From: Anoxynatronum buryatiense
GTDB taxonomy: Bacteria; Bacillota; Clostridia; Peptostreptococcales; Tindalliaceae
Direction: 5' to 3'
DNA length: 64,000 nucleotides
Assembly (NCBI RefSeq): GCF_900182905.1
Contig: NZ_FXUF01000001.1
Coordinates: 434,001 to 498,000 of the forward strand
In this document: one piece after another, positions 385 to 62,013 of the stretch
Layout: each line of letters starts with the position of its first letter
How positions within the stretch are numbered: position 1 is the first letter of the stretch
Made by a program: the position numbers and the translations under genes
The notes under the pieces: model-generated
The model's input: the letters and a program-made list of their open reading frames with translations, nothing else
What the model was told of the DNA's origin: nothing
Databases searched by the model: none

Positions 385-1758
385 TCAAAGAGTGTTATCA
401 CCATCATCATTATCTGCAACGCCATCAATTTTCCGTCTCAGGGTTTTTCTGTCGATTCCCAAAATGACAGCAGCCTTAGTTTTGTTCCCCCCGGTATAGT
501 TGAGCACATCAATTATGTACTCTTGTTCCACCTGCTCAAGGGTTCGTTCGAACCCCTTGGCAATGGAAATGCCGCCCTTCATAAACGCAGGCAGATCGGC
601 CTGTGTTACCCGCGAAGATTCAACCATGATCACCAGTCGCTGAATCAAATTTTCCAACTCACGCACATTGCCCGGCCATTCGTATCGCTTAAAAATCTGA
701 AGTACTTCATCGGATAAAACCGGTACATCACGACCAATCTCCCCTGCACATTTCTGTAAAAAATAATTAGACAGCAGTACCACATCATCTCCCCGCTCAC
801 GCAGGGCAGGTATTTGAATATTGATGACATTCAAGCGATAGTAAAGATCTTCCCGAAAGCGACCCTGCTTTACCAGATCTCTCAAATTTTTATTGGTAGC
901 TGCAATGAGACGAACGCTCACCCGACGGGGATGCTGAGAACCCACCATCATTACCATTCCATCCTCCATCACTCGCAGTAGTTTCACCTGCATGGCAAGA
1001 CTGGTCTCACCAATCTCATCGAGAAACAGGGTACCCCCATCAGCAGTGATGAAAAAACCCGCCCGGGTTTCGTTAGCACCTGTGAAAGCCCCTTTCATGT
1101 AACCAAAAAGCTCACTTTCCAACAGATTTTCCGGAATGGCACCACAGTTAACGGGAACAAAAGGTGCTTTTGCCCGTTCGCTGTGATAATGGATCGCCCG
1201 CGCGACCAGCTCTTTACCGGTGCCGCTCTCTCCGGTTACCAAAACAGTCACCGGATTTGTTGCCGATTTATCAATGGCATGAAAGACTTCTTTCATCGGT
1301 TCAGATGCCGCCACGATGCCGTATCGACTGCCGTCGGGAGCAGCTTTTCCTCTGGCCAGCTTCCGGTTGCGGACGTTTTCCATGACGCGGTTCAGACAGG
1401 CAAAAAACTCCTCATCTGTAAATGGCTTGGTCAGATATTCCTCCGCGCCACTTTTAACGGCTTCCACTGCACTTTCTACCGTAGGGTAACCGGTGATCAT
1501 GATAATTTGAAGGTCCTGATCCCGCTCTCTTATATGACGAATCAGATCAAGCCCTGTGAGTCTCGGCATTTTATAATCAGTGATCACCAGGTCAATCTCT
1601 GTGGTTTCCAGGATTCGAAGCGCACTTTCAACCTGATTGGCCAGATAAACCTGATAGCCTTTTCCGGCGAGTTTGCGTTCCAAAATTTCCAGCGTATCAG
1701 CTGAATCATCCACCACAAGTATCTGTTCTTTCTCTTTTGGTATGGATTCCTTTGTCAT
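385..1758 (-). CDS. NtrC-family sigma-54 response regulator
   Basis: A 457-residue transcriptional activator with three domains. The receiver domain covers about residues 12-125, with the acidic pair D17/D18, phosphoacceptor D61 (VITDYKMP) and a KPF signature near 111. The AAA+ sigma-54 contact domain covers about 145-380, with Walker A GESGTGKE at 176-183, GAFTGA at 223-228 and Walker [11 protein letters not shown] at 241-250. A Fis-type helix-turn-helix is at the C-terminus ([13 protein letters not shown]...). ATG at 1758 follows GGAGCGGTTCA and overlaps the kinase stop by 4 bp (ATGA), so the two are translationally coupled. It should open complexes at the sigma-54 promoter at 205-221, and perhaps elsewhere, after phosphorylation by the adjacent kinase. 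The input signal is unknown. Confidence 0.95.
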
Positions 1759-3398
1759 TGAACCGCTCCTTTCCCCGCTTCATTTACCGGCAGAATAATC
1801 ACAAAAGATGTTCCCTCACCGGGGCGGCTGATGACTTCAATGCGGCCGTGGTGGGCGGTCACAATTCCATGCACCACTGATAATCCCAGTCCGGTACCTT
1901 CCTGTACATCTTTCGTGGTGAAGAAGGGAAGAAAAATTTTCTGGCGCACTTCTTCAGTCATTCCCACACCAGTATCCCTGATTGTCAGGTGTACTTCTTC
2001 GTTGACAGCATTGGTTTCAATGGTAAAGACACCACCATCTGGCATGGCATGCATGCTGTTAACAGCCAAGTTCACCAGTACCTGATGTATTTGGCCAGGA
2101 TCAGCAATGATTTCAGGTATATTTTTTCCATAGTGCCGTTCCAATTGTATGGCATTCTTGACAAAGCGACTCCCCAGAAAATATAGTCCTTCCTCAATGA
2201 TTTGATTCACATTGATCCGACTTTTTCTGGGAGGCATCTGGCGGGAAAACAACATCAGTTTGCGTATGATCTCCCGGGCGTGAAGCGTGGCTTTAATGAC
2301 TTTGTCAATATCCTTCAGTGTTGTTTCATCCGTGTTGCTTTCTTTGATCAATTGACTGAATCCTAAAATGGAACCCAGCGGTTCGTTGATTTCGTGAGCC
2401 ACTCCGGCAGATAACTGACCAATAGTAGCCAGCCGGTCCGCATGAAGCAGCTGATTCTGCAGCCGACGGCTCAATTCCTCAGCTTCCTTCCGTTCCATGA
2501 GCAGGGCAATCTGGCTGGATACCGTTTGAATTAACTTTTCCTCTTCTTTTAGAAAAATGTCGTCATAGAAATCCATATGTCCAGGGAGGTAGAATACCTC
2601 CAATGTTCCCCAGTTCTGTTTCTCCGAAGTAATGGCTGCAGTCAACCGAATATCACTTTCCTGAAACCCCGGACTGGTAAAACACTGGTTATCCAGACAA
2701 ATACGCGCTGTGGCTATTTCTGGGAACTGCATCGCAGCAGGCAGCATTGTGACAATTCGGGCAAGCACATCTTCTTTCGAGCCATTGGTCAGACCTGCCA
2801 GATGAGAGATTTCATACAGACAGGATAATTCTTTGACTCTTTCCTGACAGGCATGATGTACATGCTGATGATTAAAAGCTTCTGACAACGCCTGACTTAA
2901 TCCTTCAAAGAGCGGTTTCAGCTCTGAATCAAAGGGACGTCCTCCCATTTGTTTCAATAAGACGATTCCCATTTTGTCATGCTGATAAAGAAACGGTACC
3001 AGCAAGACCCCTGTCACTTCATCAGCATCACCAGAAGGCACTTTTTGCTCCATGACATGACAACCGCCCCAGTTTTCCACCTGCCAGTCTGAAAAACCCC
3101 GGGAATCAACGTAGACCTGAAAGAAAGCAGGCATCCACACATCCGTCAACCTGTTATAATCCCACAGATGATCCAATTTTGCCAGGGGGTTCACTTTACA
3201 TAAGCGCAGTGCCGGTTGGCCCCGGTACTCAGCCAGAAACTGGTATAGCTTAAGGTCATAGTAAAAAAACAGGCTGGTTTCGTCCACGTTGGCTGCTTGT
3301 TGCACCATTTTGAAAATCGCATGCACAAACTCCAGTCGGCTGGTTTCCTTTCCCGCAGCCTGCAACATCTGATAGGCAAACGAGACAAAGCGTTGCAT
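1755..3398 (-). CDS. NtrB-like soluble sensor histidine kinase with GAF-like sensor
   Basis: A 547-residue kinase with no obvious membrane segments. The N-terminal 300 residues look like one or two GAF-type sensor regions. Then come a HisKA dimerisation/phosphotransfer domain (H335 in AGVAHEINEPLG) and a HATPase domain with N-box NLAVN (443-447), G1 box DTGVGM (475-480) and G2 box GTGLGLS (501-507). The chosen ATG at 3398 sits 8 bp after AAGGAGG; an in-frame TTG further upstream lies before the ribosome site and is rejected. The gene is coupled to the downstream NtrC-like regulator. The H-box has Glu where Gln or Asn is usual (HEINEP), probably a tolerated variant. Its ligand is unknown; redox or nitrogen sensing would be guesses. 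Confidence 0.92.
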   Translation of the reverse strand: MQRFVSFAYQMLQAAGKETSRLEFVHAIFKMVQQAANVDETSLFFYYDLKLYQFLAEYRGQPALRLCKVNPLAKLDHLWDYNRLTDVWMPAFFQVYVDSRGFSDWQVENWGGCHVMEQKVPSGDADEVTGVLLVPFLYQHDKMGIVLLKQMGGRPFDSELKPLFEGLSQALSEAFNHQHVHHACQERVKELSCLYEISHLAGLTNGSKEDVLARIVTMLPAAMQFPEIATARICLDNQCFTSPGFQESDIRLTAAITSEKQNWGTLEVFYLPGHMDFYDDIFLKEEEKLIQTVSSQIALLMERKEAEELSRRLQNQLLHADRLATIGQLSAGVAHEINEPLGSILGFSQLIKESNTDETTLKDIDKVIKATLHAREIIRKLMLFSRQMPPRKSRINVNQIIEEGLYFLGSRFVKNAIQLERHYGKNIPEIIADPGQIHQVLVNLAVNSMHAMPDGGVFTIETNAVNEEVHLTIRDTGVGMTEEVRQKIFLPFFTTKDVQEGTGLGLSVVHGIVTAHHGRIEVISRPGEGTSFVIILPVNEAGKGAVQ

Positions 3399-3420
3399 TT
3401 GACCAACCTCCTTCGGCAAA

Positions 3421-40276: not shown

Positions 40277-41605
40277 ATGTCAGTTCAAGAAATATACACC
40301 CAAAAAAAGAGAACGGTTGCCGAATGCTTACAGCTCATCGCCAATGGCGACCACCTTATATGCGGGCTGGCCGCCAGCGAGCCCATGACCTTGCTGGAAT
40401 CACTGCATGAACTCAGTGATCAAAAAGTCAGCGACCTGCTTCTTACCAACACGCTGCCCATGGGAGCCTACGAGTTTCTCGTTAATCCCAAATATGGTCA
40501 AACATTCACTGTTTCCTCCTGGTTTTACACGCCGGTGATGCGCAAAAACAATCACCAGCCCCATATCACCTTTCAGCCCAACCATCTGCACCGGGCCATG
40601 GATAAGCGTCTCACCGCCACCGCTGACCGCCGGCCGGTGCTGTTGACCACCTGCGCCCCCATGGATCGTCATGGCTACCTGAGCCTGTCTATCGGCAATA
40701 CCTATGAAAAACAGCTGATTCAGTCGGGAAAAGCGCTGGTGATCGTTGAGGTGAGCAATCGGTTCCCCCGCACCTTTGGTGACAATCAGATTCATATTTC
40801 CCAGGTGGATGCCCTGGTGGAAACCGACAGACCCATCCCCTGCCTGCCGGTGAATGGTATTAATTCTTATGATGAACGCATTGGCGCTCTCATTGCCGAA
40901 CGTATTGAAGATGGTTCCACCATTCAGCTGGGCATCGGAGGCATTCCCAATGCTGTTGCCAAAGCATTGGAAGTGCGCCAACATCTGGGTATTCACACCG
41001 AAATGTTCACCGACGGCATGGTGGATCTCATTGAAAAGGGAGCTGTCACCAACAGCATGAAAACCCTCCACCGAGATCAGTCTGTGTGCACCTTCGCTCT
41101 TGGTTCACAGAAATTGTATGATTTTCTTGATGATAATCCCAGCGTGCTCTTTCAGCAGGGTTGCTGGACCAATGATCCTTCCGTCATCGCTCAAAATCAT
41201 CAAATGATCTCCATCAACACCACCATAGAAGTTGATTTTGGCGGCCAGTGCTGCTCTGAATCTCTTGGCTACCAACAGTTTTCAGGTACCGGTGGACAGG
41301 CAGACACTGCCATCGGCGCTCAAAAATCACCTGGCGGAAAATCGTTTATCGCCTTATATTCAACCGCTCAAATCACTGATGCCAATGGTGAGAAGAAAAA
41401 TATTTCCAAAATTGTTCCCACACTGAAGCCCGGAGCAGTTGTCTCGCTGTCTCGTAATGATGTGGATTATGTGGTCACCGAATATGGTGTGGCTGCCCTG
41501 CGTGGTGAGTCTATTGCTTCCCGCACCCGTCAGTTAATTGATATTGCCCACCCCGACTTCAGGGAAGAATTGACTGCCGAAGCCAAGAAAATGAATTTTC
41601 TTTAG
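40277..41605 (+). CDS. Acetyl-CoA hydrolase/4-hydroxybutyrate CoA-transferase family protein
   Basis: A 442-residue family I-type CoA-transferase (Cat1/Cat2/AbfT group). The CoA-binding GIGGIPNAV is at 219-227, and the probable catalytic glutamate is E242 in IHTEMFTDGMVDL. A second family motif YVVTEYGVAALRG lies near the C-terminus. It would move CoA from acetyl-CoA or butyryl-CoA onto an incoming carboxylate. ATG follows GGAGGGATGGATT. It lies 122 bp after the KASIII-like gene with no terminator, so both probably share the promoter at 39071. Exact acceptor acid is unknown. Confidence 0.92.
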   Translation: MSVQEIYTQKKRTVAECLQLIANGDHLICGLAASEPMTLLESLHELSDQKVSDLLLTNTLPMGAYEFLVNPKYGQTFTVSSWFYTPVMRKNNHQPHITFQPNHLHRAMDKRLTATADRRPVLLTTCAPMDRHGYLSLSIGNTYEKQLIQSGKALVIVEVSNRFPRTFGDNQIHISQVDALVETDRPIPCLPVNGINSYDERIGALIAERIEDGSTIQLGIGGIPNAVAKALEVRQHLGIHTEMFTDGMVDLIEKGAVTNSMKTLHRDQSVCTFALGSQKLYDFLDDNPSVLFQQGCWTNDPSVIAQNHQMISINTTIEVDFGGQCCSESLGYQQFSGTGGQADTAIGAQKSPGGKSFIALYSTAQITDANGEKKNISKIVPTLKPGAVVSLSRNDVDYVVTEYGVAALRGESIASRTRQLIDIAHPDFREELTAEAKKMNFL

Positions 41606-41690
41606 ACTTAGCAACCGGCAGAGAATATGATAAGATGAAATGGTAACATCGCACTCCAAAGGGCGACAGGATGCATAATGAGGTGAAACA

Positions 41691-43121
41691 ATGTTCAATG
41701 AACGGGCTGACAAACATCTTGAAAAGCTTTTCCAGGATATACCCAAGTCATTATTCGACGAATTGCCACTTCCCATCAACATTGTGGATGAAAACGGCAT
41801 TGTCGTGGTGATGAACCAAGCTTTTCTCAACTTTTATGGCGCTCCAGACTTTAAAAATGCCCTGGGCCGACCACTACTGGAGTTCGATCACACCACCCGC
41901 CTGCCCATTGTCCTGAAAACCGGTATTCCAGAAGTAGGCATCCCCCATCATTTTGCCACAGGCAAGGTGGCTGTCGTTGACCGTATTCCCATTTTCGACG
42001 GCGATCAGGTGATTGGCGCCGCCGGCATGGTGGTGATTGAAGGCCTTGAAAGCCATGAAAATGCCAAACGAATCCGGGAGTCCATCATTCAGTCCATTCG
42101 TCCCGACTGGGATGACAACACCGATCAACGCAACTCCTCCGGTGCCAAATACCATTTTGACCATATTATCACCCAGTCGCCACTCATCAAACATTTTAAA
42201 GACAGGGCCCGTTCTTTTGCCGCCACCGATCTACCGGTGCTCATCACCGGTGAAAGCGGCGTTGGCAAAGAGCTTTTTGCCCAGTCAATCCACCATCACA
42301 GTGATCGACGCAGCAAACCCTTTGTCAGCATCAACTGTGCTGCCATCCCCGAAACCCTGCTGGAATCAGAACTATTCGGCTATGAAGCCGGTGCTTTTAC
42401 GGGAGCCAGCAGAAAAGGAAAACTGGGGAAATTTGAGTTGGCAAACCATGGCACGCTGTTTTTAGATGAAATTGGAGACCTGCCCCTGAGCATGCAGTCC
42501 AAGTTGTTGCGGGTACTGCAGGAAAACCAGGTGGAACGTATTGGCGGCAACGAGGTCAAATCCATTAACGTGCGGGTGATTTCAGCCACCAACCGCAATT
42601 TACATGATAAAATCAAAACCCAGGAGTTCCGTTCCGATCTCTATTACCGACTGAATGTGTTAAACCTGAACATTCCGGCCCTGCGGGAGCGGGTGGAAGA
42701 CATCGAACTGCTCATCGAGCACTTCAGCTCTCTTTTCTATCAAAAAACCGGCATTTACCGAAAGTTCAGCCCCGAAGTGATCCGGCTGCTGAGTCGCTAT
42801 CCCTGGCCGGGAAATATTCGGGAACTGGAAAACATCGTCTGTCGCATTATTGTTATTGCCGAAGGTGAAATCATCGGAAAAGAGCTGATTCCGGAAGAAA
42901 TTCTTCAGGATATTCTTGGCGGTCTTGCTGATTCCAATGATACTGCCGAGATGCTGGGCAGTCAGCCTCACAATTCGCTTGCAGAAATCATTAAACGCAT
43001 CGAAGTCAAAATCATTGAAGACACCCTGGAAATCTGCGACAACAACAAATCCAAGGCAGCTGAACTGCTGGGAATCGACCGAATGACACTGTACCGCAAA
43101 CTGAAAGCCCACGACCGTTAA
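41691..43121 (+). CDS. PAS-containing sigma-54 activator of the carboxylate cluster
   Basis: A 476-residue one-component activator. A PAS domain covers about residues 20-120 (PLPINIVDENGIVVVMNQAF). The AAA+ domain has Walker A GESGVGKE (187-194), GAFTGA (234-239) and Walker [10 protein letters not shown] (254-262), and a C-terminal Fis-type helix-turn-helix contains NNKSKAAELLGIDRMTLYRKL. ATG follows GAGGTGAAACA. It lies between two operons that each have a sigma-54 promoter (39071 and 43296), so it is the obvious regulator of both. The PAS domain probably senses a metabolite of the pathway. Confidence 0.94.
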   Translation: MFNERADKHLEKLFQDIPKSLFDELPLPINIVDENGIVVVMNQAFLNFYGAPDFKNALGRPLLEFDHTTRLPIVLKTGIPEVGIPHHFATGKVAVVDRIPIFDGDQVIGAAGMVVIEGLESHENAKRIRESIIQSIRPDWDDNTDQRNSSGAKYHFDHIITQSPLIKHFKDRARSFAATDLPVLITGESGVGKELFAQSIHHHSDRRSKPFVSINCAAIPETLLESELFGYEAGAFTGASRKGKLGKFELANHGTLFLDEIGDLPLSMQSKLLRVLQENQVERIGGNEVKSINVRVISATNRNLHDKIKTQEFRSDLYYRLNVLNLNIPALRERVEDIELLIEHFSSLFYQKTGIYRKFSPEVIRLLSRYPWPGNIRELENIVCRIIVIAEGEIIGKELIPEEILQDILGGLADSNDTAEMLGSQPHNSLAEIIKRIEVKIIEDTLEICDNNKSKAAELLGIDRMTLYRKLKAHDR

Positions 43122-43142
43122 CCAGACTGCCGTGATCCTTCA

Positions 43143-43172
43143 AAAATCCAACTCCTTCGGGTTGGATTTTTT
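43143..43172 (+). terminator. Terminator after the PAS-sigma-54 activator gene
   Basis: AAAATCCAAC/GTTGGATTTT stem with 8-nt loop, then TTGATT. It separates the regulator from the next sigma-54 operon. Confidence 0.88.
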
Positions 43173-43295
43173 GATTCCCGGATGTCTCTTCACCCCCCGT
43201 AACAATTTAGCACACTGTCGCATTCCTGTTACAAAATCTGTTGATACTTGCAGAGAAATTCGTTGAAAACAGTCATTTTCAAAACGTTTTCCAAC

Positions 43296-43311
43296 TGGCA
43301 CGCTCCTTGCA
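43296..43311 (+). promoter_or_regulatory. Sigma-54 promoter of the transporter-MaoC-SDR operon
   Basis: TGGCACGCTCCTTGCA, a perfect TGGCACG-N4-TTGCW. A perfect inverted repeat TTGAAAA-N6-TTTTCAA (43263-43282) lies just upstream and could bind an activator or bending protein. Confidence 0.9.
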
Positions 43312-43425
43312 ATAATATCCTCCAGAAGCGTGATAACCATGGGTCACGCCCAACAAAGCCGACAGGCAGAAGGAGGATCGAAGCATTCATTCATTTACCA
43401 AAACAAGATGAAGGAGGTCAATGTC

Positions 43426-43881
43426 ATGATTGATATGAAAGATCGCAAAACATTGCTGGTATTGTTGATCACCGCCTGCTGGATCATCATCACTCTCAGC
43501 GGCTGGTTTGGTTACTGGTTTTTCGGTTTATGCCTGAGCGTGGTGCTGATGTTGTTACATATGATGATGGGTGCTGCCCAGAATGGTAAGCTCAGCAAAA
43601 AAATGTTGCTGTATCCCCTGGGATCCTGGACAGTTTTATGGCTGGCTGGTTTCTACATCGCTGAATATTATTCCCAGGCATTTATGGGGGTCATGCCCTC
43701 CTTTACCATTTTAGGATTTCATCCGTCTTTTGGAGCGATTGTCATCGCCTACTGGATTGGCGGAATGCTCACCTTAACGGCAGGTCTTATTCTCTATGCC
43801 TCTGAATGGCTCTCTGAAGATTCCTGGGATGCTTTTAAAGCAAAAATAGAAGCACTTAACCAGGAACATCCCAACGTGTAA
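43426..43881 (+). CDS. Small membrane protein, probable partner of the adjacent symporter
   Basis: Not assigned to a named family with confidence. 151 residues with about four membrane helices (near 9-27, 30-47, 62-80 and 101-125) and a soluble acidic C-terminus. It ends 12 bp before the sodium:solute symporter gene. Some SSS permeases have small membrane partners encoded directly upstream (YhdT with PanF is one example), and this gene has the same layout but is longer. ATG at 43426 follows AAGGAGG at 8 bp. First gene of the sigma-54 operon. Confidence 0.75.
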   Translation: MIDMKDRKTLLVLLITACWIIITLSGWFGYWFFGLCLSVVLMLLHMMMGAAQNGKLSKKMLLYPLGSWTVLWLAGFYIAEYYSQAFMGVMPSFTILGFHPSFGAIVIAYWIGGMLTLTAGLILYASEWLSEDSWDAFKAKIEALNQEHPNV

Positions 43882-43893
43882 GGAGTGAATCAC

Positions 43894-45420
43894 ATGACAA
43901 ATACTGCCCGCTATTCCATTCTGTTTTTTTCAGTTGGTATGATCGTCATTTCCTTTATCATCGGCTGGGCCGCTAAGAAGAAAGCCATTAATCCCCAGTC
44001 CTTTTTCGGGGGAACTGCCCTTTTTGGTCCTGTCACTGTCGGTCTTTCCACTGTGTCTGCTGTCGCCAGTGCCTTTGCTGTTGTGGGAGTGCCCGGTTTG
44101 ATTTATGGCACCGGTAACACCATGAATTTATGGATGCTTTCTTCCTGTGCCTTTGCCATGGCTTACATCGCCATTGGTAAAAAAATTCGGGCCATGGCCG
44201 AAATCTACCCCATTGCCAGTCTGGGAGATATTTCTGATATTCGCTTTGACCGCCACCGGGGGATTAAGGCACTCCTCTCTGTTATATTGTTTTTGGGTGC
44301 CATCGCTTATCTGGCTTCTCAAATCAGCGCTTCTTCCACCTTATTTGCCCACTTGCTGGGATTAAACCCTTATGTGGCCGGATTCATTATTTTTGGAATT
44401 CTCACCGTCTACACCGCACTCAGTGGTGAGGTGGGTGGCATTCTGACCCAGGCCTTCCAGGGACTGGTGATGATTGTGGCCGGCCTCATCATGGTCTTTT
44501 CTTTTCTGATCATGACCGGCGGATTCGCTAATGTGGTGCAAGTGGTTTCCACTGCAGGTGAAGTGGCTGCCACAGTCGAAGGTCAGGAACTGGCGAAAGC
44601 TTTTTCGCCCAAAATGATGGACGCCTGGGGAGTTCTTCCCGGTTCCATTGCCATGACCTGGATGTTTATTCCCATTCTGGGAACCATGGGGCAGCCTCAG
44701 GTGCTGACACGCATCTATGCACTGAAAGATCCCCGGGACATGCCTAAGCTGGCCGCCTACGCCGGTCTGGGACACTTTGTCATTGGTCTTTTCGCCCTGA
44801 CCATGGGGTATGGTGCACTTTATTTGGTGGGCAACGGCCTGGTCGCTCCTCTTGCCAACAACGATACCGCCATTTTTGCCGTTGCCGACTATGTGGGCGG
44901 CTTTTCTCAAATGTTCGTATACGCAGCCATTCTGGCAGCTTCCATGTCAACCGCCAGCATGTTCCTCACCCTTTCTTCCAATATTATTTCCCGGGATCTG
45001 CCTTCTGCTTTTGGCGTGAACCTGACTGCTGATAACCAGATCAAAATTTCCCGTATCACAACATTTGTCATCGGCATCTGCGCCATCTTTTTCGCACTGG
45101 CCAGCGGCGAAGCCGTTGCCATTCTGGGTACTTTTGGATGGGGAACTCTGATGTCTGCCACTTTCCCCGTCTTCATTCTGGGTCTCACCTGGAAGGGTGC
45201 CAGCTCTCAGGGAGTCTTCTCCGGCCTGGCAGTTGCCCTGTCACTGAACATTGTATCTCTGATTCTGAATAACCGCGGCTTCAGATGGCCCGGCGGTCTT
45301 CCCTGGTATGTCAACGTTATTACCGCAGCCATCGTTGTCACTGTCGTTGTCTCACTCTTCACCAAGGGTTCTTCAGATGAAAATCTTGATCCCCGGGTAG
45401 ATGCAGTCATCGATCTGTAA
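43894..45420 (+). CDS. Sodium:solute symporter (SSS family)
   Basis: A 508-residue permease with about 13 membrane helices. SSS marks include SFFGGTALFGPVTVGLSTVSAVASAFAVVGVPG (in part) in the first helices and the middle ALYLVGNG...SMSTASMFLTLSSNII sodium-site region. It imports an organic solute with Na+; in this context a short-chain carboxylate or hydroxyacid is likely. ATG at 43894 follows TAAGGAGTGAATCAC and is preferred over the GTG at 43885, which overlaps the ribosome site. Co-transcribed with its small upstream partner. Confidence 0.92.
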   Translation: MTNTARYSILFFSVGMIVISFIIGWAAKKKAINPQSFFGGTALFGPVTVGLSTVSAVASAFAVVGVPGLIYGTGNTMNLWMLSSCAFAMAYIAIGKKIRAMAEIYPIASLGDISDIRFDRHRGIKALLSVILFLGAIAYLASQISASSTLFAHLLGLNPYVAGFIIFGILTVYTALSGEVGGILTQAFQGLVMIVAGLIMVFSFLIMTGGFANVVQVVSTAGEVAATVEGQELAKAFSPKMMDAWGVLPGSIAMTWMFIPILGTMGQPQVLTRIYALKDPRDMPKLAAYAGLGHFVIGLFALTMGYGALYLVGNGLVAPLANNDTAIFAVADYVGGFSQMFVYAAILAASMSTASMFLTLSSNIISRDLPSAFGVNLTADNQIKISRITTFVIGICAIFFALASGEAVAILGTFGWGTLMSATFPVFILGLTWKGASSQGVFSGLAVALSLNIVSLILNNRGFRWPGGLPWYVNVITAAIVVTVVVSLFTKGSSDENLDPRVDAVIDL

Positions 45421-57374: not shown

Positions 57375-58307
57375 TCACATTTCGCAGCGCTTTCGCAGTG
57401 CTTCCCACTTTGAATCCACATCTTGTTGCAGCTCTTGAATCAAGTGACGGTTTTCCGGCTGAAACAGGTGTTTAAAACGTCCCTGGGGTTCCAGAAATGC
57501 TTCGATGGGCAGTTTTTCCTTTGGTTGGTATGACAGCTGCCACTGCCCGTTGATCACTTCAAAGAGTGGCCAGTAACAGGTATCCACCGCCAAACGGCAG
57601 ATTTCCATGAGGTCCTCCGTTTCATAGCGCCATCCCCTGGGACAAGGCGCCAGCACATTGAGAAAGGCTGGTCCTTCCGTATAAATGGCTCGTTCCGATT
57701 TTTCATGTAGATCTTTAAAGTTTGCCAGAAAAGTGGTCTGTGCCACATAGGGAATCTCGTGGGCGGCCATCACGCCGGCGATGTCTTTCCGAAACTGCTG
57801 CTTTCCCTGAAGCGCACTGCCCACAGGAGATGTGGTGGTATCGGCATACTTGGGAGTCGCCGATGAACGCTGAATCCCTGTGTTCATGTACGCGCCATTG
57901 TCATAGCAGACATATACCATCTCATGCCCACGTTCCATGGCACCGGAGAGAGACTGAAACCCAATGTCGTAAGTACCGCCATCACCTCCAAAGGCGATGA
58001 ATTTATAGGTGTCGTCCAGCTTTCCTTTGTGCCGCAACACCCGATAGGCTGTTTCAACTCCTGACAAGGTGGCTCCCGCGTTTTCAAAAGCATTATGAAT
58101 AAAAGAATCCTTCCAGGCGGTGTAGGGGTAGGTAAATGTGGAAACCTCCAGACAGCCGGTGGCATTTGCAATAACCGCCCGATCACTTTCTTTCAGGGCC
58201 CGCAGCACCCCTCTCACAGCAATGGGTGCTCCACAGCCGGCACACATACGGTGCCCGCCGGTTAAACGTTCCGGTTTGTTCATAACTTCTTTAAATGCAT
58301 AGGCCAT
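57375..58307 (-). CDS. porB: 2-oxoacid:ferredoxin oxidoreductase beta subunit
   Basis: A 310-residue TPP-binding subunit. The pyrophosphate/Mg motif is FGGDGGTYDIG with the following YDNGAYMNTG; an N-terminal Cys pair CAGCGAP and later Cys residues bind the proximal 4Fe-4S cluster, as in PorB. It catalyses decarboxylation of a 2-oxoacid, with electrons passed to ferredoxin and acyl-CoA as product. It is the last gene of porG-porD-porA-porB. Pyruvate is the likely substrate, but related 2-ketoisovalerate enzymes have the same layout. Confidence 0.94.
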   Translation of the reverse strand: MAYAFKEVMNKPERLTGGHRMCAGCGAPIAVRGVLRALKESDRAVIANATGCLEVSTFTYPYTAWKDSFIHNAFENAGATLSGVETAYRVLRHKGKLDDTYKFIAFGGDGGTYDIGFQSLSGAMERGHEMVYVCYDNGAYMNTGIQRSSATPKYADTTTSPVGSALQGKQQFRKDIAGVMAAHEIPYVAQTTFLANFKDLHEKSERAIYTEGPAFLNVLAPCPRGWRYETEDLMEICRLAVDTCYWPLFEVINGQWQLSYQPKEKLPIEAFLEPQGRFKHLFQPENRHLIQELQQDVDSKWEALRKRCEM

Positions 58308-58320
58308 ATGTCATCCCTCC

Positions 58321-59502
58321 TTATTCTCTGACGCTCAGGTATCGGTATACCTCACCAGGATCGTTGGTTTCCATGATATCAAACAATGATTCGTAGACCA
58401 TCTCAATGTGCTGAGTGGTCACATCACGTCCTCCCAGACCATAAATATAATTAATGATCTGCGGCCGCTGTTCCAAAGGGTAGAGAGCCGATCGCACCTC
58501 GGCAAAAACCGGTCCTCCAGCCGCCGAGAATCCCTCGCTGCGATCCATCACTGCCACTGCTTTCAAATGGGCCAGGGCCTGACAGATTTCTTCCTGGGGA
58601 AAAGGCCTGAACATCCTGATTTTCAAAAGACCTACTTTTTTTCCTGCAGCACGCAGGGTATCCACTGTACTTTTAGCTGTACCGGCAGTGGAGTTCAGTA
58701 CCACAATGGCTGTTTCTGTATCTTCCATGCGGTAGGCTTCAAAATAATCATATCGGCGCCCGGTGAGGGCTTCAAAGTCTGTTGCCACTTCTTTGGCCAC
58801 CTGACAAGCATTTTTCATGGCTTCTGCCTGCTGGCGTTTATGTTCCATGTAGTAGGCTGCTGAATCATAGGGGCCAATGGCGATGGCTTCATGGGGATTC
58901 AACAGACTGGTGACAGGTTCATACTGCCCCACAAAATTTTTCACCACTTCATCTTCCATCAGTTCAATATTCTCGATGGAATGGGAGGTGATAAACCCAT
59001 CCTGACACACCATTACCGGCAGCTGTACCTGGGCATGCTCTCCAATACGCACTGCCTGAATGAAATTATCATAAGCTTCCTGATTGTTTTCACTGTAGAG
59101 CTGAATCCATCCGGCATCACGGGCTCCCATTGAATCGCTGTGATCCGCGTGTATGTTGATAGGGCCTGAAAGCGCCCGGTTCACCACTGCCATGGTGACG
59201 GGCAGCCTGTTGGAAGCTGCCACATAGAGCATTTCCCACATAAGTGCCAGCCCACAGGATGACGTGGCTGTCATGGTGCGGGCACCGGCAGACTGGGAAC
59301 CGATACAGGCCGACATGGCGCTGTGCTCTGACTCCACCAGAATTAAACCTGTATCTACCGCTTGATCTGCCACGTATTGGGAGAAATACTGAGGTATTTC
59401 AGTGGAAGGTGTGATGGGGAACGCCGCCACCACATCCGGATTGATCTGTTTCATGGCATAGGCAATGGCTTCATTGCCCGATAATCTTTCCCGAATAGCC
59501 AT
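58321..59502 (-). CDS. porA: 2-oxoacid:ferredoxin oxidoreductase alpha subunit
   Basis: A 393-residue alpha chain with the family start RLSGNEAIAYAMKQINPDVVAAFPITPSTEI. The central CoA/substrate region LVESEHSAMSACIGSQSAGARTMTATSSCG (in part) and the C-terminal domain with MDRSEGFSAAGGPVFAEV are typical. ATG at 59502 follows AAAGGAGTGAAGCAG; the longer frame starting inside porD is rejected. It works in complex with PorB, PorD and PorG. Confidence 0.95.
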   Translation of the reverse strand: MAIRERLSGNEAIAYAMKQINPDVVAAFPITPSTEIPQYFSQYVADQAVDTGLILVESEHSAMSACIGSQSAGARTMTATSSCGLALMWEMLYVAASNRLPVTMAVVNRALSGPINIHADHSDSMGARDAGWIQLYSENNQEAYDNFIQAVRIGEHAQVQLPVMVCQDGFITSHSIENIELMEDEVVKNFVGQYEPVTSLLNPHEAIAIGPYDSAAYYMEHKRQQAEAMKNACQVAKEVATDFEALTGRRYDYFEAYRMEDTETAIVVLNSTAGTAKSTVDTLRAAGKKVGLLKIRMFRPFPQEEICQALAHLKAVAVMDRSEGFSAAGGPVFAEVRSALYPLEQRPQIINYIYGLGGRDVTTQHIEMVYESLFDIMETNDPGEVYRYLSVRE

Positions 59503-59515
59503 CTGCTTCACTCCT

Positions 59516-59824
59516 TTATTTGATTTCTTTTGTCCATTCAATGGCTTCAAAGGGACAGGCTTTCACGCAAATTCCGCATCCCTTACAGTGATCATAATCA
59601 AACTTTTCCCGTTTACGCTCCACCACCGGAATGGAAGAATCAGGACAAGTGGGGGCACACAGCAGGCATTGGCGACATTTTTCCTGAAGCCATACCGGGC
59701 GCATGGTCCGCCAGTCTCCTGTTTTGAAATGCTGCGCACTCCCTGCTTCTGTCACAATACCGCCAGGGGAAATGGCTTTCCATCCAATCTGTTCGTTAAT
59801 CTCAATTCCCGCTTTAGTTTTCAT
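59516..59824 (-). CDS. porD: 2-oxoacid:ferredoxin oxidoreductase delta (ferredoxin) subunit
   Basis: A 102-residue 2[4Fe-4S] ferredoxin subunit with cluster motifs CRQCLLCAPTCPDSS and CKGCGICVKACPFEA, preceded by the PorD-specific WRTMRPV segment. The ATG lies 11 bp inside the end of porG (overlap 59814-59824), so the two are coupled. It relays electrons from PorB to external ferredoxin. Confidence 0.95.
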   Translation of the reverse strand: MKTKAGIEINEQIGWKAISPGGIVTEAGSAQHFKTGDWRTMRPVWLQEKCRQCLLCAPTCPDSSIPVVERKREKFDYDHCKGCGICVKACPFEAIEWTKEIK

Positions 59825-60398
59825 CGCCGTGCACCTCCTGCATTGATCGAACCAGTGCCTTCATGTTGCCGGCTACCACCTCTGTTTTTGATGCAAATTT
59901 ATGCTCAAAAGAGTGCTGCATGGTCTTGATAAATTCATCGTCTGCCATCATGCCACTTACCTTTACCACCGCTCCCAGCATCGGAGTGTTGGGGAACGGC
60001 CGTCCAAGTGCTTCCTGTGAGATTCTTTGAGCGTCAATGGTATAGAGTCGTCCATCATAATTTTCCAGACAGCGCCGGATTTCATCTGGTTTTTTTTCAG
60101 TATTGACAATAACGGCTCCTGCTGGCTTCAGACCTTTCATCACATCCACCACACCAATAAGCGTTTCATCAACCACCACCACATAATCCGGTTCATAAAT
60201 ATTGGAATGGATGGTGATTTTATCACTGCTGATGCGTGTATAGGCCGTAATGGGCGCTCCCATGCGTTCTGGTCCATATTCAGGAAACCCCTGCACATAT
60301 TTTCCGGCGTCAAAGGCTGCATCTGCCAGCAGCAGCGCCGCCGTTTTCGCCCCCTGGCCGCCCCGGCCATGCCATCGTACTTCCATCATATTCGACAA
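59814..60398 (-). CDS. porG: 2-oxoacid:ferredoxin oxidoreductase gamma subunit
   Basis: A 194-residue gamma chain beginning EVRWHGRGGQGAKTAALLLADAAF, the diagnostic N-terminus. The start is probably TTG at 60398, which is 6 bp after GGGAGGG. An ATG at 60416 lies before that site, and ATG codons three and four codons later are too far from it. First gene of porGDAB, under the sigma-54 promoter at 60435-60451. Confidence 0.93.
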   Translation of the reverse strand: MSNMMEVRWHGRGGQGAKTAALLLADAAFDAGKYVQGFPEYGPERMGAPITAYTRISSDKITIHSNIYEPDYVVVVDETLIGVVDVMKGLKPAGAVIVNTEKKPDEIRRCLENYDGRLYTIDAQRISQEALGRPFPNTPMLGAVVKVSGMMADDEFIKTMQHSFEHKFASKTEVVAGNMKALVRSMQEVHGDEN

Positions 60399-60434
60399 TT
60401 CAATCCCTCCCTGCATGATTTATCTCTTTAACGT

Positions 60435-60451
60435 AGCAACTATCATGCCAA
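60435..60451 (-). promoter_or_regulatory. Sigma-54 promoter of porGDAB
   Basis: Minus strand TTGGCATGATAGTTGCT: -24 GG and -12 GC ten bases apart, one mismatch in the TGGCACG half. It is 37 bp upstream of the TTG start. Between it and the divergent activator gene lie short inverted repeats (TTCTCAC 60452-60458 / GTGAGAA 60497-60503; GTTTC/GAAAC at 60488-60505) that may be activator sites. Confidence 0.88.
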
Positions 60452-60556
60452 TTCTCACACATTGTTGATTGCTCCACTTTGCAGGGTGTTTCGCAGGTGA
60501 GAAACAGATAGCTCCTTAAAAATGTGATAAACAAGCCTATTGTTTTGTTAGATATG

Positions 60557-60565
60557 TGTTATAAT
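60557..60565 (+). promoter_or_regulatory. Extended -10 promoter of the divergent activator gene
   Basis: TGTTATAAT: TG-N-TATAAT with a perfect -10 and no good -35, 30 bp upstream of the ATG. Confidence 0.55.
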
Positions 60566-60594
60566 CAATCAAAATGTTAGAAAAGGTGGCTGCC

Positions 60595-62013
60595 ATGAAA
60601 AAACCGGACCTTCTGTCTCTCCCATTAACCCTTCACGACCTTACCCAGCACGACTTTTATCGACAGATTCTTGACCGGTGTAACGATGGTGTCAATGTGG
60701 CTGACCTTCAGGGACGCCTGGTGTACGCCAATCCGGTTTCAGCCGCTTACGCAGGTTCAACTCCCAACGAAATGATTGGTGAAGACATTACCCGCTTCTA
60801 CCCCAAGGCTGTTTTGCTTTCGGTGCTGGAAACCCAACGTCCAGTGCTGGACAAGCAAATTCACTTCATCGGTGGGAAAAAATATCTTGTCAGCTCCTTT
60901 CCCATCTATCTAAATGGCCGCTTTTGCGGTGCCTATTCAGTTTTTAAAGATATTCAGGATATCGAAATTCTCAACCGACGCATTAAAGCGCTTGAGATGA
61001 AGCTGTCACTGAGTTCAGTTGAGCATGACCCCATGCAGATCATCGGCAACGAAGGCTCACTGAAAGAAGTGTTACGGGCTTCTCAGCGTACTGTGGGATC
61101 ACTGGGCGGTCCCCGGCATTCCATCATTATTGGTGAATCGGGAACGGGAAAAACCATGCTGGCTCGCATGATCTACCATTATGCCATCCAGGTGGGAGTT
61201 CTGGACCGTCAGGCTCCCTTTGTGGAGATTAACTGTGCTCAGTACACCAATGCAGATATTGCTGCCGTTGAAATTTTTGGCTCTGAGGAAGGTGCCTACA
61301 CCGGCTCCAAACAAAAAAAAGGCCTGTTTGAACAGGCCAGCGGCGGCATTCTCTTTCTTGATGAAGCTCATGCTCTGGAACACTACCAAACCACGCTGCT
61401 GAAAGCTGTTGAATCAGGTAAAATACGACGTATTGGCGGCAACCGGGAAATCGCCGTGGATGTCATTGTCATCGCTGCTTCCACCCATAACCTGAAGGAC
61501 GAACTGTTGCCCGAACTTTATCAGCGCCTGGCCCAGTATGAACTGGTGCTTCCGACGCTGGGGGATCGGAGTACATCAGAAAAGGAAGCACTACTTCACC
61601 ATTTCATCAAAAAATATGAAGATGCCGTGGCGCAATATCACGGCATCCAGTATCAGGTACGGTTGAGTCCAGCAGCCCGGGAGGCTCTTTTAAAGGCCCA
61701 GTATCCCCGCAATATTCGCCAATTGCGGGATGTGGTGAATCATAGCATCGATGCTGCTTCTCCGCTGATTTCAGAAGTTCAGGGAGAAGTGTCCCTGACA
61801 ATTGAAGTGCAGTTGAAGCATCTGCCCTTCGACTGTCAGTCGGAAAGCACTGCCGTCACGTACACTGCCATTGAAGGCCCTGTCAAACAGATGGTCCACC
61901 AGCTTGCCGGCGAAGGCCTTGGGCCCCGAAAAATCGCCCGGGCTCTCCAGCAGGAAGGCTGGCCCATCGAATACTATCAGGTGGCCTATTATTTGAAGCG
62001 CCATTTGTCTTGA
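60595..62013 (+). CDS. PAS-AAA+ sigma-54-type activator with variant GAYTGS loop
   Basis: A 472-residue protein. A PAS domain covers about residues 20-120 (CNDGVNVADLQGRLVYANPVSAAYAG), followed by an AAA+ domain with Walker A GESGTGKT (180-187) and Walker B GGILFLDEAH (250-259). The sigma-54 contact loop, normally GAFTGA, reads GAYTGS (233-238). The C-terminus is not the usual Fis helix-turn-helix but a helical segment EGLGPRKIARALQQEGWPIEYYQVAYYLKRHL that looks like another DNA-binding helix pair. It is divergent from porGDAB and 160 bp from its sigma-54 promoter, so it is the likely activator. ATG at 60595 follows AAAGGTGGCTGCC. Confidence 0.88.
   Translation: MKKPDLLSLPLTLHDLTQHDFYRQILDRCNDGVNVADLQGRLVYANPVSAAYAGSTPNEMIGEDITRFYPKAVLLSVLETQRPVLDKQIHFIGGKKYLVSSFPIYLNGRFCGAYSVFKDIQDIEILNRRIKALEMKLSLSSVEHDPMQIIGNEGSLKEVLRASQRTVGSLGGPRHSIIIGESGTGKTMLARMIYHYAIQVGVLDRQAPFVEINCAQYTNADIAAVEIFGSEEGAYTGSKQKKGLFEQASGGILFLDEAHALEHYQTTLLKAVESGKIRRIGGNREIAVDVIVIAASTHNLKDELLPELYQRLAQYELVLPTLGDRSTSEKEALLHHFIKKYEDAVAQYHGIQYQVRLSPAAREALLKAQYPRNIRQLRDVVNHSIDAASPLISEVQGEVSLTIEVQLKHLPFDCQSESTAVTYTAIEGPVKQMVHQLAGEGLGPRKIARALQQEGWPIEYYQVAYYLKRHLS

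Follow-up and report, generated by a model that had tools for sequence, protein, structure and literature searches.

A PAS-AAA+ sigma-54 activator family and its putative role at the porGDAB operon of Anoxynatronum buryatiense

Which regulator governs the porGDAB operon of Anoxynatronum buryatiense, and can a divergent PAS-AAA+ protein with the loop GAYTGS be that regulator? The question arises from a 64,000-nucleotide stretch of contig NZ_FXUF01000001.1 (positions 434,001 to 498,000; assembly GCF_900182905.1), referred to here as the window, in which genes for a four-subunit 2-oxoacid:ferredoxin oxidoreductase (POR) lie back to back with a gene for an activator of the sigma-54 type. We consider it probable (about 0.85) that this activator serves porGDAB as a one-component enhancer-binding protein of the sigma-54 type. 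Four lines of evidence carry this reading: an exact sigma-54 promoter before porG, the domain plan of the activator, repeated octamers upstream of the promoter, and the joint presence or absence of all of these across genomes.

The activator gene and the sigma-54 promoter of porGDAB

The features on which the argument rests are the following.

60435..60451, minus strand: sigma-54 (-24/-12) promoter of porGDAB, TTGGCATGATAGTTGCT, a consensus match that relatives keep
60595..62013, plus strand: PAS-AAA+-helix-turn-helix (HTH) sigma-54 activator, 472 aa; ATG 60595 chosen, open reading frame open from 60574
61291..61308, plus strand: codons of the GAYTGS loop, read from the sequence
61870..62007, plus strand: C-terminal three-helix HTH, not Fis-type, from predicted structure and from profile and fold searches

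An earlier note on this DNA had proposed a consensus-like sigma-54 promoter at 60435-60451 before porG, and the match proved exact: TTGGCATGATAGTTGCT agrees at all fixed positions with the clostridial consensus TTGGCATNNNNNTTGCT given in PMC6615313. On a simple consensus score it reaches 8.5 of 8.5, the sole site in the 64 kb to do so (three sites reach 8), and among 2,000 dinucleotide shuffles of the gap between porG and the activator gene none reached 8.5 and 11 reached 7. Transcription of porG is expected to start near 60424. Because the looser pattern TGGCAYGN4TTGCW, when at most one mismatch is allowed, occurs six times in the window (three times exactly) versus 2.46 expected and so cannot be called rare, the case for the promoter leans on the exactness, position, and conservation of the match. 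Across the genome (4.16 Mb in 47 contigs), exact TGGCAYGN4TTGCW occurs 20 times and its reversed control 0 times; for 14 of these 20, a sigma-54 activator gene is found no more than 3 kb away. A single rpoN gene is present, together with 35 matches to Sigma54_activat, 33 of which were counted as activators; the two lowest-scoring matches, with 34 and 32 bits in frames of 880 and 824 aa, were set aside though above cut-off. Given the single rpoN, the 20 versus 0 exact sites, and the closeness of most of them to activator genes, the predicted TTGGCATGATAGTTGCT promoter belongs to a functioning sigma-54 network. Both a sigma-54 gene in the genome and a -24/-12 promoter at the target, as an enhancer-binding protein calls for, were thus found.

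The divergent gene product matches Sigma54_activat (PF00158) at 2.4e-36 and has PAS matches in addition, in agreement with the PAS-AAA+ assignment of the earlier note. Its AAA+ domain carries both Walker A (GESGTGKT) and Walker B (FLDEAHAL); the DEAH within the latter was considered as a link to helicases and ruled out, as it is simply Walker B extended by two residues, within the AAA+ fold of a sigma-54 activator. An AlphaFold model from 46 sequences (mean pLDDT 87) is consistent in its secondary structure with PAS and AAA+ domains and a unit of three helices at the C-terminus, and its AAA+ part matches FleQ, FlrC, NtrC1, and PspF (TM to target ∼0.8), with a fold match to DmpR as well. The protein scored 181.6 bits against the PrdR model NF041552 (cut-off, 795) and is not PrdR. 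Its start is more probably ATG 60595 than 60574, since a conserved, putatively regulatory repeat (see below) has its edge at the latter and 60595 is preceded by AGAAAAGGTGG.

The C-terminal unit is a domain in its own right. No Fis-type HTH (PF02954) was found in the activator by Pfam at E ≤ 0.01, as the earlier note had suspected, and the domain itself matched nothing in Pfam at 0.01. Predicted alone, it reached a pLDDT of 96. The nearest solved shapes retrieved by Foldseek include HTH domains such as that of GcrA (5yiu; 1.2 Å, TM 0.74), with no E-value below 0.9, and a sequence search of the PDB gave weak matches to RecX (3c1d; E 0.014), ribosomal bL9 (0.1), and gamma-delta resolvase (1res; 1.1). 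Since these sequence matches are weak and no Foldseek E-value falls below 0.9, the term "resolvase/GcrA-like" refers to topology only. The family search for this domain that had been suggested was run on a sample of 60 genomes; strong scores came only from three members of the activator's own family, and 12 weak matches (E 1e-4 to 0.01) lay in other frames.

The operon on the other side of the promoter runs on the minus strand in the order porG, porD, porA, porB (57375-60398), divergent from the activator gene.

59814..60398, minus strand: porG, gamma subunit; POR at 6.3e-44, TIGR02175 over its cut-off; open reading frame open to ATG 60416, TTG 60398 preferred
59516..59824, minus strand: porD, delta subunit with two [4Fe-4S] motifs; Fer4, TIGR02179 over its cut-off
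58321..59502, minus strand: porA, alpha subunit; POR_N and PFOR_II; ATG 59502, open reading frame open to 59550
57375..58307, minus strand: porB, beta subunit, thiamine diphosphate binding; TPP_enzyme_C

Gamma, delta with its two [4Fe-4S] motifs, alpha, and beta subunits are thus encoded in one operon, the composition of a four-subunit PorGDAB enzyme. We place the start of porG, as the more probable choice, at TTG 60398, because it yields MSNMMEVRWHG, comparable to MSKLTEIRWHG in relatives. The nearest solved chain to PorA is 9bt4_B, the alpha part of a pyruvate:ferredoxin oxidoreductase (PFOR). In the whole genome, POR_N has nine matches, eight of which pass the cut-off; a 1198-aa frame on contig C10 contains one of the nine and was taken for a single-chain PFOR. 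The porA gene of the window is the sole POR_N gene with an exact sigma-54 site within 15 kb; porGDAB therefore looks like an additional, separately regulated POR.

Two further sigma-54-type neighborhoods lie in the window. A second PAS-AAA+-type activator gene, with GAFTGA (41691-43121, plus strand), stands directly upstream of an exact sigma-54 site (43296-43311, plus strand), which precedes a sodium/solute symporter-like gene pair (43330-45420); a CoA-transferase-like gene (40277-41605) lies before this activator gene. At 385-3419 (minus strand) lie genes for a response regulator of the NtrC type, with GAFTGA, and for a histidine kinase; downstream of them, an exact site (220-205, minus strand) points off the left edge of the window. 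The genes of both neighborhoods were named by eye, those at 40277-45420 from their translations.

Extent of the family, its loop, and its partner genes

Among 297 genomes of the order, orthologues of the activator were found in eight others at 56-62% identity, and the next best match fell to 33%. Among the best 80 matches from the named genomes, at least 43 loci belong to the family, with identities of 43-64% followed by a drop to ∼31% among the matches listed. By these gaps in sequence identity, the activator is assigned to a discrete family. Its distribution is patchy: two genomes of the same genus and four of the same family in the sample are without a close orthologue. For alignment, 46 rows were drawn from 52 family loci, with the window standing for locus L052; L060, L086, L089, and L094 (duplicates or near-duplicates) and L105 and L118 (truncated) were left out. 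In the resulting tree, the window groups with Clostridium drakei and C. thailandense (100/99) within a clade of 37 rows (100/99).

The earlier note had described the loop as a departure from the sigma-54 activator family, with a less usual final Ser, and this stands only for activators at large. Among the other activators of the same genome (30 loci, 28 readable loops), 19 loops read GAFTGA, 4 GSFTGA, and 1 GAFTGS, and none of the 28 reads GAYTGS. Within the activator's own family, GAYTGS outnumbers every other form, with 32 of the 46 members; the others are GAFTGS and GAYTGA (4 each) and GSFTGS, GAFTGA, and GSFTGA (2 each). Position 6 is Ser in 38/46 and position 3 is Tyr in 36/46. In a midpoint-rooted tree, the six-row branch that faces the rest has loops ending in Ala in five cases. 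The DEAH of Walker B, likewise described as a departure, is present in the protein and is a family trait (51 of 52 loci, with DETH in one). Commonness of the loop variant in close homologues, which that note had singled out as a check on its own proposal, was thus looked at and found. Since GAYTGS predominates in the family and DEAH is nearly invariant in it, we regard both as clade signatures, and GAYTGS as uncommon outside the family, as far as these alignments indicate.

Could such a protein have lost contact with sigma-54, either as a sigma-70 regulator like TyrR or through decay? Its loop carries two changes, changes in this loop (above all at Phe and Thr) mostly lower or abolish activity according to PMC3162934, and its Sigma54_activat score of 128 bits lies below those of 31 of the 32 other activator-type genes of the genome (188-251 bits; the remaining one, 75). 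We nonetheless hold this to be very improbable, for all 46 rows fit G[AS][YF]TG[SA], retaining Thr-4 and both glycines, and near-consensus sigma-54 promoters are kept in the family (32/46 rows). In addition, DVU0679 of Desulfovibrio vulgaris has GAYTGS and an assigned target and is counted by its authors among the variants expected to keep activity (PMC4641369), and the F-to-Y change, which bears on position 3, is given for TouR, a validated activator (PMC3162934). The loop of the window's activator may be a tolerated variant of GAFTGA.

Linkage to por recurs across the family. Divergent por genes accompany the activator in 9/9 loci of the order, the window included. Of the at least 43 named loci, 20 have porGDAB, or the part of it that the contig holds, in divergent orientation, and 8 end within 400 bp of the activator gene, before the partner. 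Four (L099, L101, L108, and L118) have an acryloyl-CoA reductase-like gene and an EtfB-like gene instead (by clustering, with a profile search on L108 only), two (L088 and L124) have a relative of butyryl-CoA:acetate CoA-transferase, and nine show other arrangements. Because the scores are below the equivalog cut-offs (526.8/640 bits for AcrC and 365.7/674.8 for the CoA-transferase), these two names denote the best match only. When 450 bp were scanned, a sigma-54 site of at least 7.0/8.5 was found on the divergent strand in 32 of the 46 rows and on the other strand in 0/46. For the por-divergent rows, the counts were 21/24, or 22/24 with the longer gap of L123 included by a widened scan, and 0/24 on the other strand.

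Genes beside or behind these sites also encode the 2-hydroxyacid racemase LarAH10 (629.3 bits; cut-off, 540), NPN isomerase (526.1; cut-off, 400), glycolate/lactate oxidase-type proteins (GlcD at 500, below its cut-off of 567.9), and DctP transporters. A conserved set of four proteins (∼126, 340, 120-140, and 193 aa) that gave no Pfam or NCBIfam match when tested in L112 or L115 is also encoded beside activators of the family (L112:4050-6941, L115:4033-6935, L117:3419-6964, and L114:11912-13935). In L112, L115, and L117, its neighbors are TRAP genes and the gene of a nickel-pincer isomerase (group 22); in L114, three of the four proteins are encoded behind por.

Operons without the activator served as a negative control. 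Close relatives of porA occur in 61 of the 297 order genomes, and 9 of the 61, the window's own included, have the activator; none of the searched genomes has the activator without a close porA. From the 52 activator-less por loci, 20 were sampled, mostly the best scoring; one was too short upstream, leaving 19, two of which look nearly identical. On the por strand, 0/19 had a sigma-54 site of at least 7 (best, 6.5), and 1/19 had any octamer of the kind described below (a single copy). With 0/19 sites in the absence of the activator versus 22/24 in its presence, the predicted promoter, octamer, and activator occur or are missing together. The genome does encode 32 other activator-type proteins, and the sigma-54 promoter might be real with porGDAB mainly under another activator or promoter, the window's activator being a minor input. 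In view of the linkage and of the joint presence and absence across genomes, we rate this as rather unlikely. The proposal in the earlier note that the divergent activator controls porGDAB through sigma-54 is therefore supported by the promoter, the single rpoN, the kept linkage, the upstream octamers, and this control. One por operon of the control, L204, from a genome of the same family, has a degenerate site, TTGGAATTATGATTGCT (6.5/8.5), perhaps a remnant.

Upstream octamers and the proposed mechanism

Between the -24 element and the activator gene, the aligned segments contain a repeated octamer, TGTTA(G/T)AA, in some cases TGTTGTAA. The window has three copies, which we regard as candidate upstream activator sites (UAS).

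60546..60553, plus strand: octamer copy 1, TGTTAGAT, one base off; 95-102 bp upstream of the -24 element
60557..60564, plus strand: octamer copy 2, TGTTATAA; 106-113 bp upstream; also readable as an extended -10 of the activator gene
60575..60582, plus strand: octamer copy 3, TGTTAGAA; 124-131 bp upstream

Copy 3 overlaps ATG 60574 and extends into the ribosome-binding site that serves ATG 60595. Octamers were counted in those 35 of 48 segments that have a sigma-54 site of at least 6.5; of the 13 segments dropped, L085, L093, L095, and L123 hold octamers. On both strands, 91 copies were found, versus a mean of 2.95 and a maximum of 7 in 200 shuffles, although some segments come from close relatives and do not amount to 35 independent trials; copy 1 of the window falls outside this count, for which a stricter pattern was used. 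All 35 segments contain the octamer and 29 contain two or more copies, most commonly in steps of 12 bp in the same direction (18 times). In 14 segments a copy starts at a distance of 51-52 bp from the promoter, and in 20 segments at 63-64 bp. The array of the window is the same as that of L082 but lies 31-32 bp further out, a shift of approximately three helical turns that may reflect helical phasing. The position of the window's conserved copies, 95-131 bp, is close to the 100-250 bp given for most UAS in PMC6615313, and they are putative binding sites on this sequence evidence. In the window's genome, a search for the octamer pair gave two overlapping matches at the porGDAB locus and a hit at one further place, against 0 in the control.

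The octamers might merely be the sigma-A type -10 of the activator gene, in which case the real UAS would be another element. In support of this, TGTTATAAT is readable as an extended -10, a copy precedes the activator gene in 35/35 segments, and the window has a perfect palindrome, TGTTTC-N8-GAAACA (60487-60506, 36-55 bp upstream of the -24 element), that could take the place of the UAS. Such an explanation leaves out the two or more copies, often 12 bp apart, in 29 of the 35 segments, and the copies at target promoters that lie away from the start of the activator gene. The latter were found in four of the nine differently arranged loci: L111 and L114 (both before por), L116 (before a TRAP gene), and L121 (before a TRAP gene and also before the gene of a 2-hydroxyacid racemase); only one copy in total precedes the activator gene in these nine loci. 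Of their 10 sigma-54 sites of at least 7, five have octamers (9 seen versus 0.59 expected), each with a copy starting 98-101 bp upstream. The octamers at these target promoters are the strongest evidence that the octamer is the putative binding site of the activator, and we judge the -10 explanation decidedly unlikely. The palindrome was rejected as a UAS, since among the palindromes listed (up to eight per locus) it appears in the window only; it may be a site of another regulator.

What can be read directly from the DNA is the promoter, the octamers, the PAS/AAA+/HTH plan, and the cross-genome linkage; from these we infer the remaining steps. The PAS domain would sense a small intracellular acid. 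The three-helix HTH units would bind the TGTTA(G/T)AA copies, which precede the -24 element by 95-131 bp, and the AAA+ ring would loop over, so that the GAYTGS loop would remodel sigma-54 RNA polymerase at porG. Activator bound at the octamers should also repress its own synthesis, because the octamers overlie the -10-like element of the activator gene and extend into the ribosome-binding site of that gene. The outcome would be an inducible extra POR beside the single-chain PFOR encoded elsewhere in the genome. A 2-hydroxy- or 2-oxo-acid (pyruvate, lactate, or another) is our tentative guess for the signal, based on the POR, acryloyl-CoA reductase, racemase, NPN isomerase, oxidase-type, and DctP genes beside or behind the sites. 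More broadly, with odds that we place a little below even, these proteins may form an undescribed family of sigma-54 activators in which a small resolvase/GcrA-like HTH reads arrays of single TGTTAKAA sites, often in direct steps of 12 bp, rather than Fis-type dimers reading inverted repeats. Such a family would tune the 2-hydroxyacid/2-oxoacid node of anaerobes through POR, acryloyl-CoA reductase, CoA-transferase, 2-hydroxyacid racemase, glycolate/lactate oxidase, and TRAP uptake.

Besides the loop changes, several observations weigh against parts of this account. Most order genomes with a close porA (52/61) are without the activator. Among the por-divergent loci, the site of L058 scores only 6.5, and L085 has por and octamers and no recognizable sigma-54 site. 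In five other genomes, the octamer pair gave 14 matches versus 11 in the reversed control and is not specific. A single octamer copy per locus could be the ordinary extended -10 of the activator gene. No octamer was found at the sigma-54 sites of L112 and L122 or at one of the two in L114, and no sigma-54 site of at least 7 was found in the stretch covered of L115, L117, and L120, so that five of the nine loci of other arrangement have no octamer-bearing site. The pyruvate equivalog models score below cut-off (PorA_Arch, 489.4/550; PorB, 354.9/405; PorC, 199.9/270 bits), and pyruvate as the substrate is therefore only putative. Finally, the guess at the effector draws on neighboring genes alone.

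Comparison with known systems

If the account is right, a central ferredoxin-reducing enzyme of anaerobes would be placed under a discrete family of sigma-54 activators that is missing from Table 1 of PMC6615313. The recurrence of the arrangement of activator and por in many anaerobes points to a real regulatory family, the TGTTAKAA arrays offer a testable DNA code, and GAYTGS appears to be a stable form of the loop that accompanies near-consensus sigma-54 promoters. The alternative targets, which are of a known sort in that PMC12316311 reports sigma-54 control, in Clostridia, of genes for acetyl-CoA hydrolase and for electron-transfer flavoprotein, lead to a concrete hypothesis for the PAS ligand.

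Literature searches, covering titles and the starts of abstracts, found no paper on a por regulon of the window's type. In the main text of PMC6615313, porGDAB is in none of the 39 reconstructed regulon groups of Table 1, the supplementary list of 490 proteins being outside this comparison, and the main text of the 2025 survey PMC12316311 does not use the term "ferredoxin oxidoreductase." Sigma-54 control of por had been called unusual in the earlier note; this is only partly right, given two precedents, DVU3025 under LurR (PMC6456213) and ZypR-iorAB, listed for clostridia in Table 1 of PMC6615313.

The first of these is the por gene of D. vulgaris, DVU3025, which has a sigma-54 promoter; LurR activates DVU3025-3033 approximately 2-fold on lactate (PMC6456213). 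The likeness to the window lies in lactate/pyruvate metabolism and in a pyruvate:ferredoxin oxidoreductase gene preceded by a sigma-54 promoter and by upstream activator sites, to which correspond, in the window, the predicted promoter, the candidate octamers, and a POR of putative pyruvate specificity. By its description in PMC6456213, LurR is set apart as a two-component response regulator with different 16-bp sites, and the por of D. vulgaris consists of one gene; provided that LurR is the DVU3023 of Table 1 in PMC4641369, an identification that is ours, the loop of LurR reads GAFTGA. DVU0679 shares the identical GAYTGS loop and has an assigned sigma-54 target (PMC4641369, Table 1), but is a response regulator with a non-coding RNA as its target. 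The C-terminal HTH resembles those of GcrA (5yiu), RecX (3c1d), and gamma-delta resolvase (1res), which belong to different protein families and gave no significant E-value.

Closest in plan are the clostridial PAS-AAA+ activators (PrdR, ZypR, and others), which are one-component regulators with mostly adjoining targets and the consensus TTGGCATN5TTGCT (PMC6615313). In that survey, a Fis HTH is present in 335/490 proteins and TGT-N10-12-ACA inverted repeats in 15/39 groups; the activator of the window differs in combining a non-Fis HTH with octamer arrays. Its kind is thus well known, whereas its own DNA-binding domain, its own site, and its own target appear to be new.

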